Positions 9,014 to 25,882 of a stretch of DNA of 64,000 nucleotides are shown here, piece by piece. The position numbers and the translations under genes were made by a program. Within the stretch, counting starts at the first letter, position 1. Every line of letters begins with the position of its first letter. Location of the stretch: positions 2,046,001 to 2,110,000 of the forward strand of contig NZ_JANHDH010000001.1 in the NCBI RefSeq assembly GCF_026616195.1, read 5' to 3'. Under the pieces are notes generated by a model. The model did no database searches. It had not been told where the DNA came from and saw only the letters and a list, made by a program, of their open reading frames with translations. Origin of the DNA: Haloarchaeobius amylolyticus (GTDB lineage Archaea; Halobacteriota; Halobacteria; Halobacteriales; Natrialbaceae).

Positions 9014-10642
9014 TCAGGAGAACTTTCTGACGGTCACGTCGAGGTCCTGGAGGTCCACGATGGGCGCGTACCCGGCGTCGGGGTCGATGTTGACGGACTT
9101 CTGGAAGTCGGTCTGTTCCTGCCAGCAGCCGGAGTTGATGGCGAGGACGTTGTGGTACTTCCCGAAGCCGAGCTTGTGGACGTGGCCGGTGTGGAAGATG
9201 TCGGGGACGTTCTCGATGACGAGGTAGTCCTCCTCCTCCGGAGCGAGGCGGGTGTGGCCCCCGTACTGCGGGGCGACGTGGCGCTTCTTCAGCAGCTGGT
9301 ACATCGCCTTGTGGGGCTCGTCGTAGCTCGCCTTGTCCTCGGGGAGTTCCGCGATGACCTCGTCCAGCGAGACGCCGTGGTACATGAGGACGGAGACGCC
9401 CTCTATGGTCACCGTCGAGGGGTTGCCCGTGATGCGGGCGTCGTGGGCCGACATGATGCTCCGGAGTTCGTCGTCGAAGCCCGGCTGGGGTTCGGCCAAC
9501 CGGACCGCGTCGTGGTTCCCCGGGATCATGATTATCTCGAGGTCGCCGGGCACCTGCTTGAGCTTCTCGTTGAACGTCTCGTACTGCTCGTAGATGTCGA
9601 CGACGTCGAGTTCCTCGTCCTGGTTCGGGTAGACGCCGACGCCCTCGACCATGTCGCCAGCGATGCAGAGGTACTCGACGTGTTCGGCCTCCTCGGTGTA
9701 CAGCCAGTCGCAGAAGGCGTCCCACTCGTCGTGCATGAACTCCTGGCTGCCGACGTGGACGTCGGAGATGAGCGCGGCTTCGACCTTCCGGTCGGCGTAG
9801 GACGGCTCGTAGGTCCGGGGCACGTCGGGGAAGTGCATCGAGTCGACGAACACGATGCCGGCGTCGTCCGAGAGCGTCCCCTCGATGGCGATGACCTCGT
9901 CACAGAGCAGTTCGTCGACCAGCTCCGCGATGTCGCGGTCCTTCATCACGAGGCAGGGGAACGTCCCCTTGGTGTCCTCCAGTTCGACGAGCCAGTGGCC
10001 CGAGGCGGTCGACCGGATGTCGTTGACCATCCCGACGATGGCGACCTCGCTGCCGGGCGCCATCGACTCGATGGCGGTCGTCGGCCGGTGGTTGACCCGC
10101 CCCCGCAACTTGCTCGAGAGCTTGTCGTAGCGGTCGCGGAACACCTTCACGAAGTCCTTGTACTCGCCGGTCCCGGTGCTCTGGCCGGTGATGTCTCCGG
10201 CGATGTCGACCGACCGCTTCGTGGGGTCGACCTCGCGCTGGAAGGACCCCCCTGTTTCAACTGGAGCAGCCGCGGTATTCCCGGGTGAATGGGGAGAATC
10301 TCCACCCGAAACGGAGGGGTCTGGTTCGGCGGTCTCGGGGTCGGCGGCGGTTCCGGGGCCAGCGGTCCCGGAGTCGGCGGCGGCCGGGGTCTGGGTCGGG
10401 TCGTCCGGTGAGCCGCCGTTCGCCGCGGCCTCCCGCGCCGACCCGTTCGATTCCGCCTCGCGGACCGTCCGGACGTCCTCGGCGGTGATGACGATGGTGT
10501 CCTCGCCGGCCGCGTCGACGACCGCGCGGAGGGTTCCGGTCGGGTCGTCGGCGGTCGCGATGAGCGTCACGGCCTCGCGCTCGGCGTTGTAGCCGTGGCT
10601 CGCGAGTTCGCCGACGATGCGTGCAGACCCCTCCAGTGGCAC
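9014..10642 (-). CDS. polD1: DNA polymerase D (family D) small subunit, DP1
   Basis: This 542-residue protein is the small subunit of the archaeal replicative polymerase PolD. The N-terminal domain (about residues 1-60) is followed by a low-complexity linker of roughly 100 residues. An OB fold comes next (AIVGMVNDIRST region), then a calcineurin-like phosphoesterase domain with SDVHVGS, GDMVEGVG, IPGNHDAVR, MYHGVS and HTGHVHKLG. Metal-binding residues appear intact, as expected for the Mre11-like 3'-5' exonuclease of DP1. The start is GTG; an out-of-frame ATG overlaps it. The gene is divergent from sec11 over 128 bases. Two ORB-like sequences lie inside its linker-coding region. Confidence 0.92.
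   Translation of the reverse strand: MPLEGSARIVGELASHGYNAEREAVTLIATADDPTGTLRAVVDAAGEDTIVITAEDVRTVREAESNGSAREAAANGGSPDDPTQTPAAADSGTAGPGTAADPETAEPDPSVSGGDSPHSPGNTAAAPVETGGSFQREVDPTKRSVDIAGDITGQSTGTGEYKDFVKVFRDRYDKLSSKLRGRVNHRPTTAIESMAPGSEVAIVGMVNDIRSTASGHWLVELEDTKGTFPCLVMKDRDIAELVDELLCDEVIAIEGTLSDDAGIVFVDSMHFPDVPRTYEPSYADRKVEAALISDVHVGSQEFMHDEWDAFCDWLYTEEAEHVEYLCIAGDMVEGVGVYPNQDEELDVVDIYEQYETFNEKLKQVPGDLEIIMIPGNHDAVRLAEPQPGFDDELRSIMSAHDARITGNPSTVTIEGVSVLMYHGVSLDEVIAELPEDKASYDEPHKAMYQLLKKRHVAPQYGGHTRLAPEEEDYLVIENVPDIFHTGHVHKLGFGKYHNVLAINSGCWQEQTDFQKSVNIDPDAGYAPIVDLQDLDVTVRKFS
10245..10266 (-). repeat. ORB-like sequence inside polD1 (left member of inverted pair)
   Basis: Read on the minus strand it is CTCCAGTTGAAACAGGGGGG, close to the archaeal origin recognition box consensus (TTCCAGTGGAAAC...GGGGG). 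Its G-rich end points left, away from its partner. Confidence 0.5.
10299..10323 (+). repeat. ORB-like sequence inside polD1 (right member of inverted pair)
   Basis: TCTCCACCCGAAACGGAGGG on the plus strand differs at only a few positions from the ORB at 14996-15025. Its TCCAC end faces the left member across a 32-base spacer and its G-rich end points right. This is the same geometry as the ORB pair flanking the unwinding region of the origin. Confidence 0.5.
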
Positions 10643-12201: not shown

Positions 12202-13773
12202 TCAGTTGTTGAACCGCGCCTGTACGAACGGCTGGATGTTCTCGATGTCGCCCAGCCGCGAGTCGCTCATCAGGACCGCCTCGGTCTCCTCGATTGGGAC
12301 CGAGAGGCTGATCTCCTTGGTGCGGCCGTAGCGACCCTTCGAGACGACGACCGCGTTCACGATGCCGAGCATGTCAAGCTCGGAGATGAGGTCGGTGACG
12401 CGGCGCTGGGTGAGGACGTCGGCGTCGATCTCCTCGCAGAGGCGCTTGTAGATGTTGAACACCTCGCCCGTGTTGATGTTGTGGACGCCGTTCTTCTCCA
12501 GCAGGATGATGGCGAACAGGACGAGTTTGCTCTGCGTGGGTAAGGTGCGTACCACCTCGACCACGCGGTCGAGTTCGATCTTGTCCTGGGCCTGCCGGAC
12601 GTGCTCCTCGTCGACGACCTCGGACTGGGAGCGCTCGGCGAGCTCGCCCGCGGTGCGGAGCAGGTCGAGTGCACGGCGAGCGTCACCGTGCTCCTGGGCG
12701 GCGAAGGCCGCACACAGCGGGATGACGTCCCCCGTGAGTGCGCCGTCCTTGAACGCCACGTCGGAGCGGTGCTGGAGGATGTCCCGGAGCTGGTTGGCGT
12801 CGTAGGGCGGGAAGACGATCTCCTCCTCGCCGAGGCTGGACTTGACGCGAGGGTCGAGGAAGTCGGTGAACTTCAGGTCGTTCGAGATGCCCATGATGCT
12901 CACGCGGGAGTTCTCCAGCTCGGAGTTCATCCGCGAGAGGTTGTACAGCGTGTCGTCGCCCGACTTCTCGACCAGTTTGTCGATCTCGTCGAGCATGATG
13001 ACGACCACGCGCTCCTCGTAGTCGACCGCGTCGAAGAAGACGCTGTAGACCCGGTCGGTCGGCCAGCCGGTCATCGGGACGCTCTCGAACTCCTCCTGGT
13101 CCTCGCGGAGGGTCTCGATGCGGTCGCGGACGTCCTCGCGGGAGTCGAACTCGGTGTCGGCGAGGGGGTGCGTTTCGGCTGCGCCGGCGCTGGACCGGTC
13201 GTCGGTGTCGGGGGCGGTGCCCGAGGCGGTCGCCTCGTACTCGTCGAGTGCGTCGAGCCGGTCCTGTAGTTCGTCGATACGGCGGTCGATGATCTCCTCG
13301 TTCTCGTCGATGAACTTGTTCGCGAGCTGGGCGAGCACGCGGTACTGGGTGTCGGTCACCTCGCAGTTGATGTACTCGACGGAACACGGGACCTCGTACT
13401 TCTTCGAGGTGGACTCGAGTTCGTTGGAGACGAACTTCGCGCTCGCGGTCTTGCCGGTCCCGGTCTTCCCGTAGATGAGGATGTTCGAGGGGGTCTCGCC
13501 CCGGAGCGCGGCGACGAGGATGGTCGCCATCTTGTTGATCTGCTCCTTGCGGTGGGGGAGCTCGTGTGGCGTGTAGGAGGGCCGCAGCACCTCCTTGTTC
13601 TCGAAGATGGGCTCCCCGCTGAGGAGGTCGTCGAACAACCCCTGGGAGGCCTCTTCCTCCTCCTCGTCGAGGACCACGTCGTCGAGGTCGACGCTGAAGT
13701 CCCGCGATGTCTCTATCTTTCCGGGTCGGTCCCCGTCTCGTTCGTCACCGCCCGCATCGTCGTTATCTGTCAT
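12202..13773 (-). CDS. orc1: Orc1/Cdc6 replication initiator
   Basis: A 523-residue AAA+ initiator. After an acidic N terminus, YTPHELPHRKEQI precedes Walker A GKTGTGKT (about residues 100-107). The Walker B is VIMLDEIDKL, with sensor 1 in IMGISNDL. ARRALDLLRTAGELAE is the sensor 2 region, and a C-terminal winged-helix domain binds origin DNA (TQRRVTDLISELDMLGIV). An acidic insertion of about 60 residues follows IDELQDRLDALDEYE. The gene lies directly beside the ORB-bearing origin region and is transcribed away from it. An ORB starts 11 bases upstream of its ATG, so autoregulation is plausible. It is the likely cognate initiator of this origin. Confidence 0.95.
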   Translation of the reverse strand: MTDNDDAGGDERDGDRPGKIETSRDFSVDLDDVVLDEEEEEASQGLFDDLLSGEPIFENKEVLRPSYTPHELPHRKEQINKMATILVAALRGETPSNILIYGKTGTGKTASAKFVSNELESTSKKYEVPCSVEYINCEVTDTQYRVLAQLANKFIDENEEIIDRRIDELQDRLDALDEYEATASGTAPDTDDRSSAGAAETHPLADTEFDSREDVRDRIETLREDQEEFESVPMTGWPTDRVYSVFFDAVDYEERVVVIMLDEIDKLVEKSGDDTLYNLSRMNSELENSRVSIMGISNDLKFTDFLDPRVKSSLGEEEIVFPPYDANQLRDILQHRSDVAFKDGALTGDVIPLCAAFAAQEHGDARRALDLLRTAGELAERSQSEVVDEEHVRQAQDKIELDRVVEVVRTLPTQSKLVLFAIILLEKNGVHNINTGEVFNIYKRLCEEIDADVLTQRRVTDLISELDMLGIVNAVVVSKGRYGRTKEISLSVPIEETEAVLMSDSRLGDIENIQPFVQARFNN

Positions 13774-13783
13774 CTGTTACGTT

Positions 13784-13809
13784 CACCCCTTTGTTTCATC
13801 TGGAGATAG
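13784..13809 (-). repeat. ORB at the orc1 start
   Basis: On the minus strand it reads TCTCCAGATGAAACAAAGGG followed by GTG, a close ORB match. It ends 11 bases before the orc1 start codon and so overlaps the expected promoter or leader. That placement suggests the initiator controls its own gene. Confidence 0.65.
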
Positions 13810-14186
13810 TCGCCAGCCCGGTCGCGAGAGGACGTGACACCGGCAGTGAGTAGGTTCATAGTGAAGAACGCGATGTCGAACCGTCCAGTTGATGCAAACG
13901 AAGCAGATGAACACGAGGGTAATAATAGTTGTCCTTCAGCGACCAGTTCGGGGTCGGTCTCGGGGGCGTTCCACACGAAGTAACCGGGTGTTGGAGGGTC
14001 CTACTGCGAGTATCGAGCCGTTTCAGAGTTCGAGCCGGTGGTTATCCAGTCGGATGGGTACCTCGGGGGCCTCCGGTTTCAGGTCGAACCGGGGTGGCGG
14101 TGGTCGGTCGGCGAGTCGGTCGGGTCAGGATGGGAGGTTGGGGGATACAGCGTGAGTTCGGGGTCAGGACGGCGAAGATCGGTAGC

Positions 14187-14210
14187 TGGACGGGAAACGA
14201 AGACAGGGGA
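14187..14210 (+). repeat. Degenerate ORB-like sequence
   Basis: TGGACGGGAAACGAAGACAG then GGGA keeps the GGGAAACGAAG core of the ORB at 14725 but has a disrupted G tail. It may be a weak initiator site. Confidence 0.35.
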
Positions 14211-14270
14211 GCAGGTCGAAAAGACCGAGAACGCGACGAAGTCCACAGGAGGTCGGTACGTCGGCAACCG

Positions 14271-14294
14271 GAGTGGACGGGAAGGAAGGGGGTT
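14271..14294 (+). repeat. Degenerate ORB-like sequence
   Basis: GAGTGGACGGGAAGGAAGGG followed by GG resembles the ORB at 14725 with AAACG changed to AAGG. It has the same orientation as the copy at 14187. Confidence 0.35.
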
Positions 14295-14724
14295 CGTTGG
14301 GACACAGACCGGGGGGACCACCCTGTGCTTCCGGTCGAACGCTCGATGCGGAGAGACGACGGACTGCCTGTCGGAGACGGAATGTCGGAAGGAGGAGTTC
14401 TAGTCTAGTTAGTCTGCGCTCACGTACGCGAGCAGGCTTCCATCGTCCCGCAGAGAACCTCCTCTATACTACCGGGAGTCTATCCCGTAGGCAACTGATG
14501 GAGTCGACGACCTCGGTAGCTCGACGAACCGCCTATCGAGTGGACCGCGTCTCCTCGGGGCTGTCGATCCAGGAGCCCCGGAAGGTCCTGGAAGGAGATG
14601 GCGAGTTCCCGGTGGGTCCAGCTTGAGGGAGTCGTCGATGGAGGTGATGCGGTGGAATGGATAGTGAATGCTGGCGGGCCCTGGGTCGGGTGTCCGTGCT
14701 GGTCGGTCAGTGCTGCCGAGTACT

Positions 14725-14746
14725 GTGGACGGGAAACGAAGGGGTG
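14725..14746 (+). repeat. Origin recognition box
   Basis: TGTGGACGGGAAACGAAGGG then GTG is a strong ORB match on the plus strand. Its G-rich end faces that of the next ORB, 20 bases away. Confidence 0.7.
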
Positions 14747-14763
14747 CTAGCACGTCTCTAGGG

Positions 14764-14795
14764 ACCCCCCCACCCCTTCGTTTCGGGTGGAACGC
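14764..14795 (-). repeat. Origin recognition box, left of the unwinding region
   Basis: On the minus strand it reads GTTCCACCCGAAACGAAGGG followed by a long G run. The core is the same as in the ORB at 14996-15025, in opposite orientation, with the TTCCAC ends of both facing the AT-rich segment. Confidence 0.82.
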
Positions 14796-14837
14796 GAGAA
14801 AGGTGGGGTGGGGGTCCACGGGGTCTTCTAGTGCCGG

Positions 14838-14965
14838 AATGTTTAAGACGGTAGTCTATAAACAATATCCGCACTGCCGTATTAATCCAAATAGTACTAG
14901 AGCTAGTTATATTGTAGACTAGACGTTGTCTCTTTTCTGTTTCTTCACTAGAACAAAACACGCCA
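14838..14965. other. AT-rich duplex unwinding element of the origin
   Basis: This is the most AT-rich stretch of the window apart from short promoters. It contains words such as GTTTAAGACG, TATAAACAATAT, TATTAATCCAAATAGTA and TTATATTGTAGACTAG. It lies between two inverted ORBs, which is where strand opening is expected. Confidence 0.75.
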
Positions 14966-14995
14966 TCTGCCGCCACCCCGACCACCCCTTCGACC

Positions 14996-15025
14996 GTCTC
15001 CACCCGAAACGAAGGGGTGGGGGGC
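14996..15025 (+). repeat. Origin recognition box, right of the unwinding region
   Basis: TCTCCACCCGAAACGAAGGG followed by GTGGGGGG is the clearest ORB on the plus strand. Its core is identical to the minus-strand ORB at 14764. Confidence 0.82.
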
Positions 15026-15418
15026 TACCAACGTCGGCCGGTACCACCTATCGTGTCCACTGTCACCAGACCACGTGCCTCACGTTTCGTCTTTCCACCT
15101 CGAGCTATCCACTTCGATCGGTGACTGTCCCTGTATCGCCTACCGGGTCGTCCAATCCGTCCGAAGCCCGGGAGAGCGTGGGCCATTCTCCGGTCCACTC
15201 GACACTCCCGGGATCTTCCGCTGTCATCGACGCTCTTCTGTCCCGGTCTCCGACTCCCAGGAGCAGACGTCGAAGCAACCAACTGACTCGACAAGCGGTT
15301 CACCGCGTTCCACGTGAAAAACCCGTGTGTTGCGGCACTCGAACGGGTCTGGTTCGTGTGCACAGACCACGTCCCCGTCATCCGGTTTCCGGGCCGCTCG
15401 GCGCCCGTTCTCGACACG

Positions 15419-15436
15419 TTAAATGATATACAAATT
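15419..15436 (+). promoter_or_regulatory. Probable promoter of the oapABC/arvABC operon
   Basis: TTAAATGATATACAAATT is an isolated AT-rich box about 100 bases before the GTPase start. It predicts a leader of roughly 75 bases. Unlike most genes here, this one then has a ribosome binding site (GGAGG at 15523-15527, 10 bases before ATG), consistent with a leadered transcript. Confidence 0.5.
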
Positions 15437-15537
15437 TCATGTCTGACGTAGGCTTAAGTGAGTCGAGTTCGCTACTATGGGCAGACGCACGTGGATTGCG
15501 GTTTCACAGCCGGTCACGTGTGGGAGGATAGAACAGG

Positions 15538-16185
15538 ATGGGACTCATCTCAGGACTGAAAGACAGCCTCGCTCGCGTGAGGGAAAGTCTGTTCACAGAG
15601 GAGGAGCAACAGAAGCGAATCGGCATCTACGGACCGCCGAACGCAGGTAAGACTACGCTGGCGAACCGGATCGCCCGCGACTGGACTGGTGACGCCGTCG
15701 GGCCAGAGAGCCACGTTCCACACGAAACGCGCCGCGCCCGGCGCAAGGAGAACGTGGAGATCGAGCGCAACGGCAGCTCCGTCAACATCGACATCGTCGA
15801 CACGCCCGGCGTGACGACGAAGGTCGACTACGAGGAGTTCATGGAGTTCGACGACTTCGACAAGGACGAAGCCGTCCGGCGCTCCCGCGAGGCCACCGAA
15901 GGCGTCGCGGAGGCGATGCACTGGCTCCGCGAGGACGTCGACGGCGTCATCTACGTGCTCGACAGCTCGGAGGACCCGTTCACGCAGGTGAACACGATGC
16001 TCATCGGCATCATCGAGTCGCGCGACCTGCCGGTGCTCATCTTCGCGAACAAGATCGACCTCGACGAGTCCAGCGTCAAGCGCATCGAGGACGCGTTCCC
16101 GCAACACGAGACCGTCCCGCTCTCCGCCCTCGAGGGCGAGAACATGGACGAGGTCTACGACAAGATTGCGGACTATTTCGGGTGA
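15538..16185 (+). CDS. arvA: Origin-associated small GTPase OapA / ArvA
   Basis: A 215-residue Era-like small GTPase. Motifs in order: P-loop GPPNAGKTT (residues 32-40), G3 in DIVDTPGV, G4 in FANKID, and G5-like PLSALEG near the C terminus. The N terminus (GLISGLKDSLARVRESLF) is amphipathic and could touch membrane. It is the first gene of a three-gene operon beside the origin. In haloarchaea these genes were named oapABC by position. As I recall, the GTPase was later shown in Haloferax volcanii to be required for extracellular vesicle formation and renamed ArvA. A ribosome binding site GGAGG precedes the ATG. Confidence 0.88.
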   Translation: MGLISGLKDSLARVRESLFTEEEQQKRIGIYGPPNAGKTTLANRIARDWTGDAVGPESHVPHETRRARRKENVEIERNGSSVNIDIVDTPGVTTKVDYEEFMEFDDFDKDEAVRRSREATEGVAEAMHWLREDVDGVIYVLDSSEDPFTQVNTMLIGIIESRDLPVLIFANKIDLDESSVKRIEDAFPQHETVPLSALEGENMDEVYDKIADYFG

Positions 16186-16188
16186 ACA

Positions 16189-16575
16189 ATGCCGGAAGCT
16201 AAAACCTCAGACGGCGGCGGGGTCCAGATCGACCTCATCAGTGGCGAGCGGATGGCTAACCTCGCGAGCATGGAGAAGATCCGGATGATCCTCGATGGCG
16301 TCCGCGACGGGAACATCGTCATCCTCGAGGAGGGCCTCTCGCCCGACGAAGAGTCGAAGCTCATCGAGGTCACGATGACCGAGATCAGCCCCGACGAGTT
16401 CAACGGTATCGAGATCGAGACGTACCCCCGCTCGAAGACGAACGACGCGAGCATCCTCGACCGCATCATGGGTCGCGAGGAGACGTCGAAGCTCACGGTC
16501 ATCGGTCCGGCGAACCAGATCGAGACGCTCCACAAGGACGAGAACCTCATCAGCGCGCTCGTCTCCCGGAAATAA
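16189..16575 (+). CDS. arvB: DUF2073 protein, OapB / ArvB
   Basis: A 128-residue protein of the DUF2073 type. It starts MPEAKTSDGGGVQIDLISGE and has conserved-looking blocks MEKIRMILDGVRDGNIVILEEGL and IGPANQIETLHKDE. No enzymatic motif is visible. It begins 3 bases after the arvA stop and its TAA overlaps the arvC ATG by one base, so the three genes are almost certainly cotranslated. The function is inferred from the operon: a partner of the vesiculating GTPase. Confidence 0.82.
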   Translation: MPEAKTSDGGGVQIDLISGERMANLASMEKIRMILDGVRDGNIVILEEGLSPDEESKLIEVTMTEISPDEFNGIEIETYPRSKTNDASILDRIMGREETSKLTVIGPANQIETLHKDENLISALVSRK

Positions 16576-17579
16576 TGCCCCACCAGTGTACCGAATGCGG
16601 CCGGACGTTCGAGGACGGCTCGAAGGAGATGCTCTCGGGCTGTCCCGGCTGCGACGGGAACAAGTTCCAGTTCATCCCGAAGGGCGCGATGGACGACGCC
16701 GATGGGTCGCCGAGCCAGCCCGACGACTCGGCGAGTCCACCCGACCGGCCGTCACGGGACGGCAACGCGGTTACGAAGGCGGCCACGACCGTCCGCGAGT
16801 GGGTCAACCGGAACTCCGAGGACGAGGACCGCGCCTGGCCGAAGTCCGCGACAGAGGACTACGACACGCCCGCCGAGAAGGCGGCAGCACGGTCGGACGA
16901 GTCGCCGGCACGGGCCGACGACTCGCCAACCGGGCCGGCAGAGTCGGGAACCCAGCCCACCGAGTCGACCGCCGGGACGAGCGACCCGGCTGCAGGTGAA
17001 ACACAGCCCTCGAACGCCGCCGAGACGGCGGAACCCGAGGCAGCGGAACCCACCCCGGCCGAGACGACCGGCCCGAAGAGGGCCGAGGCGGCCGAATCGG
17101 ACACTGCCGAACCGGACACTGCCGAGTCCCGGCCCGCCCCACAGTCGGCCGACGACCAGGAGGGTGCGGGCAGCATCTCGGCGCGGACGATGTCCTCCGA
17201 GGACAACGCACAGGCGAGTGCACGCTCGGACATCGTCTCGCCGGACGAACTCCCCGACCCTGGCGAACAGTCGAGCGCCGCATCCGGTGCGGAGCCCGCC
17301 GCCCAACCGGCCCAGTCGGGAGCCCCGGAACAGCAGGTCGGCTCGGCCGACGGCCACGTGGTGGCCGAACCGGCCGACACCGAGGTCGACGACCGGCCCG
17401 ACCTGGACGAGTTGCGCGAGGAGCTCAACCAGCAGTTCGAGAGCATCAAGATCCTCAACCCCGGGCAGTACGAGCTGAACCTGATGGAGCTGTACGACCG
17501 CGAGGAGTACATCATCTCCCTGCGCGAGGACGGCCGCTACGTCATCGACGTCCCGGACAGCTGGCGCGGGGAGGAGTGA
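16575..17579 (+). CDS. arvC: Zinc-ribbon protein OapC / ArvC with long disordered linker
   Basis: A 334-residue protein with an N-terminal zinc ribbon: CTECG (residues 5-9) and CPGCDG (about 23-28). A very long linker rich in Pro, Ala, Glu, Ser and Thr follows (about residues 40-265), with repeated words such as ESDTAEPDTAE. A compact C-terminal domain contains LREELNQQFESIKILNPGQYELNLMEL split over residues 275-305 and ends with a DGRYVIDVPDSWRG motif. Both ends are conserved-looking; the middle is low complexity. It is the third gene of the arvABC operon. The zinc ribbon could bind nucleic acid or protein; which is unknown. Confidence 0.8.
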   Translation: MPHQCTECGRTFEDGSKEMLSGCPGCDGNKFQFIPKGAMDDADGSPSQPDDSASPPDRPSRDGNAVTKAATTVREWVNRNSEDEDRAWPKSATEDYDTPAEKAAARSDESPARADDSPTGPAESGTQPTESTAGTSDPAAGETQPSNAAETAEPEAAEPTPAETTGPKRAEAAESDTAEPDTAESRPAPQSADDQEGAGSISARTMSSEDNAQASARSDIVSPDELPDPGEQSSAASGAEPAAQPAQSGAPEQQVGSADGHVVAEPADTEVDDRPDLDELREELNQQFESIKILNPGQYELNLMELYDREEYIISLREDGRYVIDVPDSWRGEE

Positions 17580-22096: not shown

Positions 22097-22145
22097 GGTG
22101 GGACGTTGGTTTTCCACGTCACCCGGTGATGCTACCGCCCCCGCA

Positions 22146-22168
22146 GACCCCTCCGGTTCCACTGGAGA
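22146..22168 (-). repeat. ORB-like sequence upstream of the XPD-like helicase
   Basis: On the minus strand it reads TCTCCAGTGGAACCGGAGGG then GTC, a close match to the general archaeal ORB consensus. It lies about 95 bases before the helicase start codon. Confidence 0.45.
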
Positions 22169-24865: not shown

Positions 24866-25882
24866 TCACACCACGGTCGCGTCCGCGGGGTCGAACCCGA
24901 GCTGGACCGTCTCGTCCCCGGGGACCGAATCGGTCCGCCAGACGACCTGCCGGCCGCCCCAGTCGCAGTAGACCCGCACCGACTCGCCGAGGAACTCGGT
25001 CTGTGCGACCGTCACCGAGAAGCGGTTCTCGGAGTGGTTCTCGCGCAGGTGCTCGGGTCGGACGCAGAACGTCACGGAGTCGCCCCGCACGTCGTCGGTG
25101 AGCAGGAATTCGCCCTCGCCAACGCGCACGCGAACCCCCTTCGTTTCGACTGGAGATGTGGCACCGGTGAACACGTTGTTCTCCCCAACGAACTCCGCGA
25201 CGAACCGGCTCGCGGGCTCGCGGTAGACCGCCTGTGGCGTCCCGACCTGCTCGACCTGCCCGTCGTGCATGACGGCCACGCGGTCCGAGATGGCGAGAGC
25301 CTCCTCCTGGTCGTGGGTGACGTAGACGGTCGTGACGCCCAGCTCTGACTGGATACGGGCGACCTCCCGGCGCAGCGTCTCGCGGAGTCGCGCGTCCAGC
25401 GCGCTCATCGGTTCGTCGAGCAAGAGCACGTCGGGTTCGGGGGCGAGGGCGCGGGCGAGGGAGACGCGCTGTTGCTGGCCGCCGGATAGCTCGTCGGGGG
25501 CGCGGTCTTCCATCCCGGCGAGGTCCACGAGGTCGAGCAGTTCCGTGACCCTCGCGTCGTGGTCGTTGATGTCGGTGAACTGCAGGCCGTAGGCGACGTT
25601 CTCGGCGACGCTCATGTGCGGGAACAGCGCGTAGTTCTGGAAGACGACGCCCACGTCGCGGTCCTCCGGCGGGACCCCGGCCATGGATTCGCCGCCGAAT
25701 CGCACCACTCCCGAACTCGGCTCCTCGAACCCGGCGATGGTCCGCAGGGTGGTGGTCTTCCCACAGCCCGAGGGGCCGACCAGCGTGAAGAACTCGCCGT
25801 CTTCCACGTCGAGGCTCACGTCCGAGAGGGCGGTCGCATCGCCGTACTCGACCGACACGGCATCGAGGTGGAGGTCGCTCAC
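24866..25882 (-). CDS. ABC transporter ATPase (thiamine-type, ThiQ/PotA-like)
   Basis: A 338-residue ABC ATPase. Walker A GPSGCGKTT is near residue 38. The Q-loop segment is VVFQNYALFPHMSV, the signature motif ELSGGQQQRVSLARAL, Walker B DVLLLDEPMSALD and the switch histidine in VTHDQEEAL. A C-terminal TOBE-like domain follows (from about residue 235). The GTG start overlaps the permease stop by four bases. With the fused permease and the binding protein upstream, it forms a complete importer. Energises uptake at the membrane. An ORB-like sequence lies inside the gene at 25132-25157. Confidence 0.88.
   Translation of the reverse strand: MSDLHLDAVSVEYGDATALSDVSLDVEDGEFFTLVGPSGCGKTTTLRTIAGFEEPSSGVVRFGGESMAGVPPEDRDVGVVFQNYALFPHMSVAENVAYGLQFTDINDHDARVTELLDLVDLAGMEDRAPDELSGGQQQRVSLARALAPEPDVLLLDEPMSALDARLRETLRREVARIQSELGVTTVYVTHDQEEALAISDRVAVMHDGQVEQVGTPQAVYREPASRFVAEFVGENNVFTGATSPVETKGVRVRVGEGEFLLTDDVRGDSVTFCVRPEHLRENHSENRFSVTVAQTEFLGESVRVYCDWGGRQVVWRTDSVPGDETVQLGFDPADATVV
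25132..25157 (-). repeat. ORB-like sequence inside the ABC ATPase gene
   Basis: On the coding (minus) strand it reads TCTCCAGTCGAAACGAAGGG then GGTTCG. It is one of the best ORB matches in the window outside the origin, and it falls in the TOBE-region codons. Confidence 0.45.

Follow-up and report, generated by a model that had tools for sequence, protein, structure and literature searches.

Gene setting and architecture of the predicted origin region

The window analyzed here (the whole 64,000-nt stretch of DNA) contains at positions 13774–15537 an intergenic region of 1764 bp, located between a minus-strand orc1/cdc6 initiator gene and the plus-strand oapABC genes (Table 1). The product of the former gene scores 653.7 bits against the NF001625 model (cut-off 501), and the flanking of an ORB pair by orc1 and oapABC represents the arrangement of nearly all relatives examined. 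In one genome (G015), orc1 is inverted and separated from oapA, and the ORB pair remains close to oapA. The Orc1 protein of the window matches the family model in two stretches, which suggests an extra acidic segment within its AAA+ domain (around residues 165–227).

Table 1. Coordinates and properties of the genes, ORBs and other sequence elements discussed in the text (ORB scores in bits)
Feature	Position	Strand	Properties
DNA polymerase D small-subunit gene, host of an ORB pair	9014–10642	minus	
Intragenic ORB, left of divergent pair	10240–10267	minus	26 bits on 22-nt part; conserved; rare codons
Intragenic ORB, right of divergent pair	10299–10326	plus	31 bits on 22-nt part; conserved; rare codons
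orc1/cdc6 initiator gene, oriC1 type	12202–13773	minus	NCBIfam NF001625 equivalog; Pfam Cdc6_C, Cdc6_lid
Third ORB, adjoining the orc1 start codon	13779–13806	minus	26.1 bits
Conserved non-coding island, TATA-like stretch	13882–13938	minus	near-invariant in six same-genus genomes
Weak ORB, overlooked by the initial annotation	13968–13995	plus	8 bits; similar sequence in closest relative only
ORB-like sequence (14187 of the initial annotation)	14185–14212	plus	−5.7 bits, chance level; not conserved
Half ORB (14725 of the initial annotation)	14724–14751	plus	2.9 bits; exact GAAACGAAGGGGTG half, no TCCA half
Left core ORB with G-string	14766–14793	minus	GTTCCACCCGAAACGAAGGGGTGGGGGG; 45.8 bits
G-rich inverted repeat, left arm	14800–14816		GGTGGGGTGGGGGT; within inverted repeat I1
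AT-rich unwinding element (putative)	14838–14965		36% GC; conserved in genus
G-rich inverted repeat, right arm	14974–14989		ACCCCGACCACCCC; within inverted repeat I1
Right core ORB with G-string	14997–15024	plus	TCTCCACCCGAAACGAAGGGGTGGGGGG; 44.6 bits
Conserved island	15435–15493	plus	near-invariant in six same-genus genomes
oapA (GTPase), oapB, oapC	15538–17579	plus	OapB and OapC Pfam families; GTPase domain

Individual ORBs were scored with a matrix whose 90 sites were the best ones of each strand in 45 relatives, the window itself being left out (consensus GTTCCACTTGAAACGAAGGGGTGGGGGG); with this matrix, a score of 15 bits was never attained in 30 simulated 64-kb Markov sequences. The two highly scoring core ORBs lie 203 bp apart with their G-strings facing outward, and the element enclosed by them is the GC minimum among all 63,873 128-bp stretches of the window. 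The initial annotation had placed an AT-rich stretch between two inverted ORBs (minus 14764, plus 14996); given these matrix scores and the GC minimum, that observation was right to within a few bases. It had not listed the G-rich inverted repeat, which is located directly inside the core ORBs. A minus-strand and a plus-strand ORB flank the AT minimum in nearly all of the 45 relatives, and the core pair is present in 78 of the 80 loci of a second, named set. An alignment of six same-genus genomes places the ORBs, the G-rich repeat and the AT element among the best-conserved blocks, along with the start-codon ORB and the two promoter-like islands, of which the one on the minus strand is probably the orc1 promoter and the one on the plus strand probably that of oapA.

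The same scoring did not bear out the proposed series of strong and weak ORBs (14187, 14271 and 14725) defining initiator affinity, which was rejected as its members score at chance level or lack conservation. Thus, the box at 14271 is at chance level, outside the top matrix matches and kept in the closest relative only, and about 0.6 sites scoring as high as the half ORB are expected per 64 kb, this half ORB being likewise kept only in the closest relative.

Predicted origin function and the CTAG cluster

All of the sequence features that define a haloarchaeal oriC1 were found at this locus in conserved form (an oriC1-type orc1, inverted ORBs with G-strings, an AT element, a G-rich repeat and divergent oapABC). 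The initial assignment of this region as a haloarchaeal oriC1 beside orc1/cdc6 is thus supported by the orc1 type, the ORB/AT layout, the G-rich repeat and oapABC, with origin activity being a prediction; we put the probability that positions 13774–15537 constitute the chromosomal replication origin oriC1 of this haloarchaeon at roughly 93%. By homology, Orc1 produced from the adjacent gene would bind the pair of core ORBs, which face outward, contacting the conserved TCCA..GAAAC part through its winged helix and the G-string through its AAA+ domain; the G-rich inverted repeat inside the ORBs would assist. Bound Orc1 would then recruit MCM, and the AT-rich element would open for bidirectional replication (both MCM loading and unwinding being expected by homology). 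Such a core is an ordinary oriC1 of a known type, to which the present analysis adds a well-annotated example.

Cumulative GC skew climbs to approximately 15 kb of the window and is flat thereafter, a profile confounded by gene orientation. No clear skew pattern was observed across 26 sampled 20-kb stretches of the 2.4-Mb contig, and GC skew was, therefore, dropped as proof of an origin.

The genome contains seven further Orc/Cdc6 matches, and therefore the analyzed region need not be the sole or main origin. Pushed further, this consideration would make it a dormant or relic origin in a cell using other orc-linked origins, its parts being kept mainly as a regulatory region for orc1 and oapA. 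AT-rich and CTAG-rich regions with inverted repeats do adjoin several of the other orc genes, and dormant origins are known in haloarchaea (PMC3528665; PMC4595724), where they can have intact ORBs (PMC3528665). Nevertheless, dormancy appears very improbable given the strong conservation of all required elements at this locus and the status of oriC1 as the one origin conserved across haloarchaea and active where tested (PMC3528665; PMC3936714). A different elaboration of the predicted active oriC1, namely its control by methylation, is raised by the distribution of CTAG. This tetranucleotide is four-fold depleted in the window (24 vs. 96 expected), and 9 of the 24 copies fall within 14400–14951, including four in the AT element (14897, 14903, 14919 and 14948) and one just left of it (14828), giving 5 in the 203-bp ORB-ORB core. 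Across 45 such cores, 200 CTAG were counted vs. 46 expected from composition. A candidate orphan CTAG methylase could mark the AT element, and hemimethylated DNA could delay re-initiation, as it does in E. coli through Dam and SeqA. Consistent with this scheme, the genome has one N6_N4_Mtase (Pfam) gene, 52 of the 55 relatives searched have a homologue of it, and CTAG clusters at haloarchaeal orc1 starts have been reported (PMC4752239), for which reason we regard the cluster described here as a refinement of position. A strict correspondence between methylase and cluster was not observed, several enzyme-bearing species having no cluster, among them distant species with only 0–1 core CTAG. In the genus of genome G056, where the enzyme is missing in 44 of 52 species, the cluster is absent with or without the enzyme (3 vs. 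16 loci, means 0.33 and 0.25), and thus a causal link is not established; the within-genus correlation was discarded as showing no difference, with only 3 enzyme-positive loci available. Moreover, H. volcanii grows without defect upon loss of the methylase (PMC5867850). Altogether, we consider methylation control of oriC1 unlikely.

Elsewhere in the same genome, eight CTAG occur within about 55 bp (L136:2939–2993). This group lies upstream of a further orc/cdc6 gene and next to inverted repeats.

ORBs at the orc1 start codon and away from the core

An additional ORB, noted by the initial annotation just before the orc1 start codon, is indeed real (26.1 bits) and conserved. A minus-strand ORB near the inferred orc1 start is present in 37 of 46 loci, as compared to 1 of 46 when the opposite strand is taken and to 10 of 201 null windows. 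In the second set of loci, it was found in 43 of 80, and it is missing at many Haloferacales loci (e.g., Halobellus, Halogeometricum, Haloferax). This box is likely an autoregulatory site, through which Orc1 would most likely repress its own gene, a step without direct precedent in the family; autorepression is the simplest reading because an initiator site touches the start of the initiator's own gene.

The gene for the small subunit of DNA polymerase D (polD) also has a divergent pair of ORBs embedded in its coding sequence. Among the 69 named haloarchaeal loci having the respective gene end, 68 carry at least one ORB (Haloferax and Haloarcula members included) and 46 carry the divergent pair, in most cases with a start-to-start spacing of 62. 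In the window and the 28 relatives with the pair, the spacing (59, 62, 74 or 80) keeps the frame in every case, and the boxes lie in a variable, hardly alignable linker of the protein. The two boxes, in opposite orientation, encode different peptides, and in the window they use some of the rarest codons of the gene (GTT at 1% of Val codons, ACA at 3% of Thr codons), an equally low codon usage being reached in only 0.2% of sliding windows. In genome G036, polD has been relocated and the ORB pair is found inside it, 28 kb away. The possibility that these boxes are a mere echo of a conserved peptide was rejected based on the hardly alignable linker, the different peptides, the in-frame spacing steps and the rare codons. 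Taken together, the variable in-frame spacing, the poor linker alignment, the rare codons and the movement of the pair with its gene in G036 point to DNA-level selection for ORBs inside polD.

The genome-wide analysis combined pattern searches with sampled stretches. A search with the pattern TCCANNNGAAACGAAGGGG (up to 2 mismatches) returned 14 sites genome-wide, compared with 0 when the pattern was reversed. Of the 14 sites, 9 fall in the 51 kb around oriC1. In 19 genomes, 94 of the 177 outlying ORBs (> 3 kb from the core) are located within 100 kb of oriC1 vs. approximately 10 expected under uniformity, an excess whose nominal P value overstates independence because these genomes are related. 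Several of the recurrent places are gene-linked. In 15 of 30 genomes, a strong ORB (25–38 bits on the 22-nt part) follows a tRNA-Gln gene by about 45 bp and shares its orientation (L165:1501–1519 and L327–L355), and nmd3 is preceded by one to three ORBs in 11 of 30 genomes, approximately 85–380 nt before the matched NMD3 domain (L298–L324).

An ORB in the pcna promoter of this genome (C1:2264727, 29 bits) was rejected as a conserved site, having been found in 2 of the 31 loci searched. Two ORB-like sites of the window (25129–25156 with 21.6 bits and 22141–22168 with 17.3 bits), of which one overlaps the gene of an ABC-transporter ATPase and the other just precedes a helicase gene, recur in the nearest relative (G002), where their distances from oriC1 are similar.

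Possible roles of the outlying ORBs and comparison with known systems

Both the outlying ORBs and the one at the start codon are genuine, conserved elements of the sequence, for which two roles may be considered. One is that of a DnaA-like Orc1 with two jobs, acting at the origin as well as at conserved outlying ORBs (at its own start codon, in polD and, often, at tRNA-Gln and nmd3), which may couple initiator level, replicase supply and, possibly, translation; we rate this scheme as plausible, slightly short of an even chance. A competing possibility, to be taken seriously but held with less confidence, is that the same boxes serve as a sink, lowering free Orc1 and limiting initiation without regulating their host genes, in the way that datA is a sink for DnaA. 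The concentration of outlying ORBs within 100 kb of oriC1 would suit a sink, and in H. hispanica, titration of the initiator by an ORB-rich region takes place at oriC2 (PMC3936714). On the other hand, the ORBs keep set positions with respect to genes (within polD, 45 bp after tRNA-Gln and at the orc1 start), which counts against a sink because a sink needs no such context, and the polD pair of G036 has travelled with its gene.

The core origin belongs to an established type, and it is the outlying ORBs that offer a testable novelty. In the papers covered (main texts, with few subscription papers among them), neither ORBs within the polymerase D gene nor an ORB at the orc1 start codon came up, and they may have been mentioned elsewhere. 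Published origin prediction has been confined to intergenic regions beside orc genes (PMC3528665; PMC4595724), and a box internal to polD would, therefore, have escaped it. The outlying ORBs matter more than the core. Little is understood of how archaea control their initiator, and with these sites a DnaA-style circuit can be tested directly through point mutations.

Among the characterized systems, the closest match is oriC1-cdc6A of Haloarcula hispanica, in which an AT element likewise lies between two inverted G-string ORBs upstream of an oriC1-type orc1/cdc6; there, ORBs and G-strings are needed for autonomous plasmid replication, and the counterpart of the G-rich repeat is an enhancer (PMC3936714). 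The activity of that origin has been measured, whereas the one in the window is known from sequence, and neither an ORB at the start codon nor ORBs within the polymerase D gene are discussed in that paper (PMC3936714). The orc7-linked origin of Halobacterium NRC-1 is similar in having a large inverted repeat and an AT-rich region of about 200 bp located 5' of the orthologous orc gene; this inverted repeat around the AT-rich region is required for autonomous replication (PMC1906834), which was demonstrated there and is predicted for the origin of the window. As in the haloarchaeal origins with CTAG clusters (PMC4752239), the cluster adjoins the start of orc1/cdc6 and a candidate orphan methylase gene is present in the genome; the present analysis places the sites of the window in the AT element between the ORBs. 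The remaining parallel, with the DnaA boxes of dnaA and datA in E. coli, is one of working principle, as the initiators and boxes are unrelated and the function of the archaeal sites is inferred; nevertheless, in both cases initiator sites are found at the initiator's own gene as well as at outlying loci.
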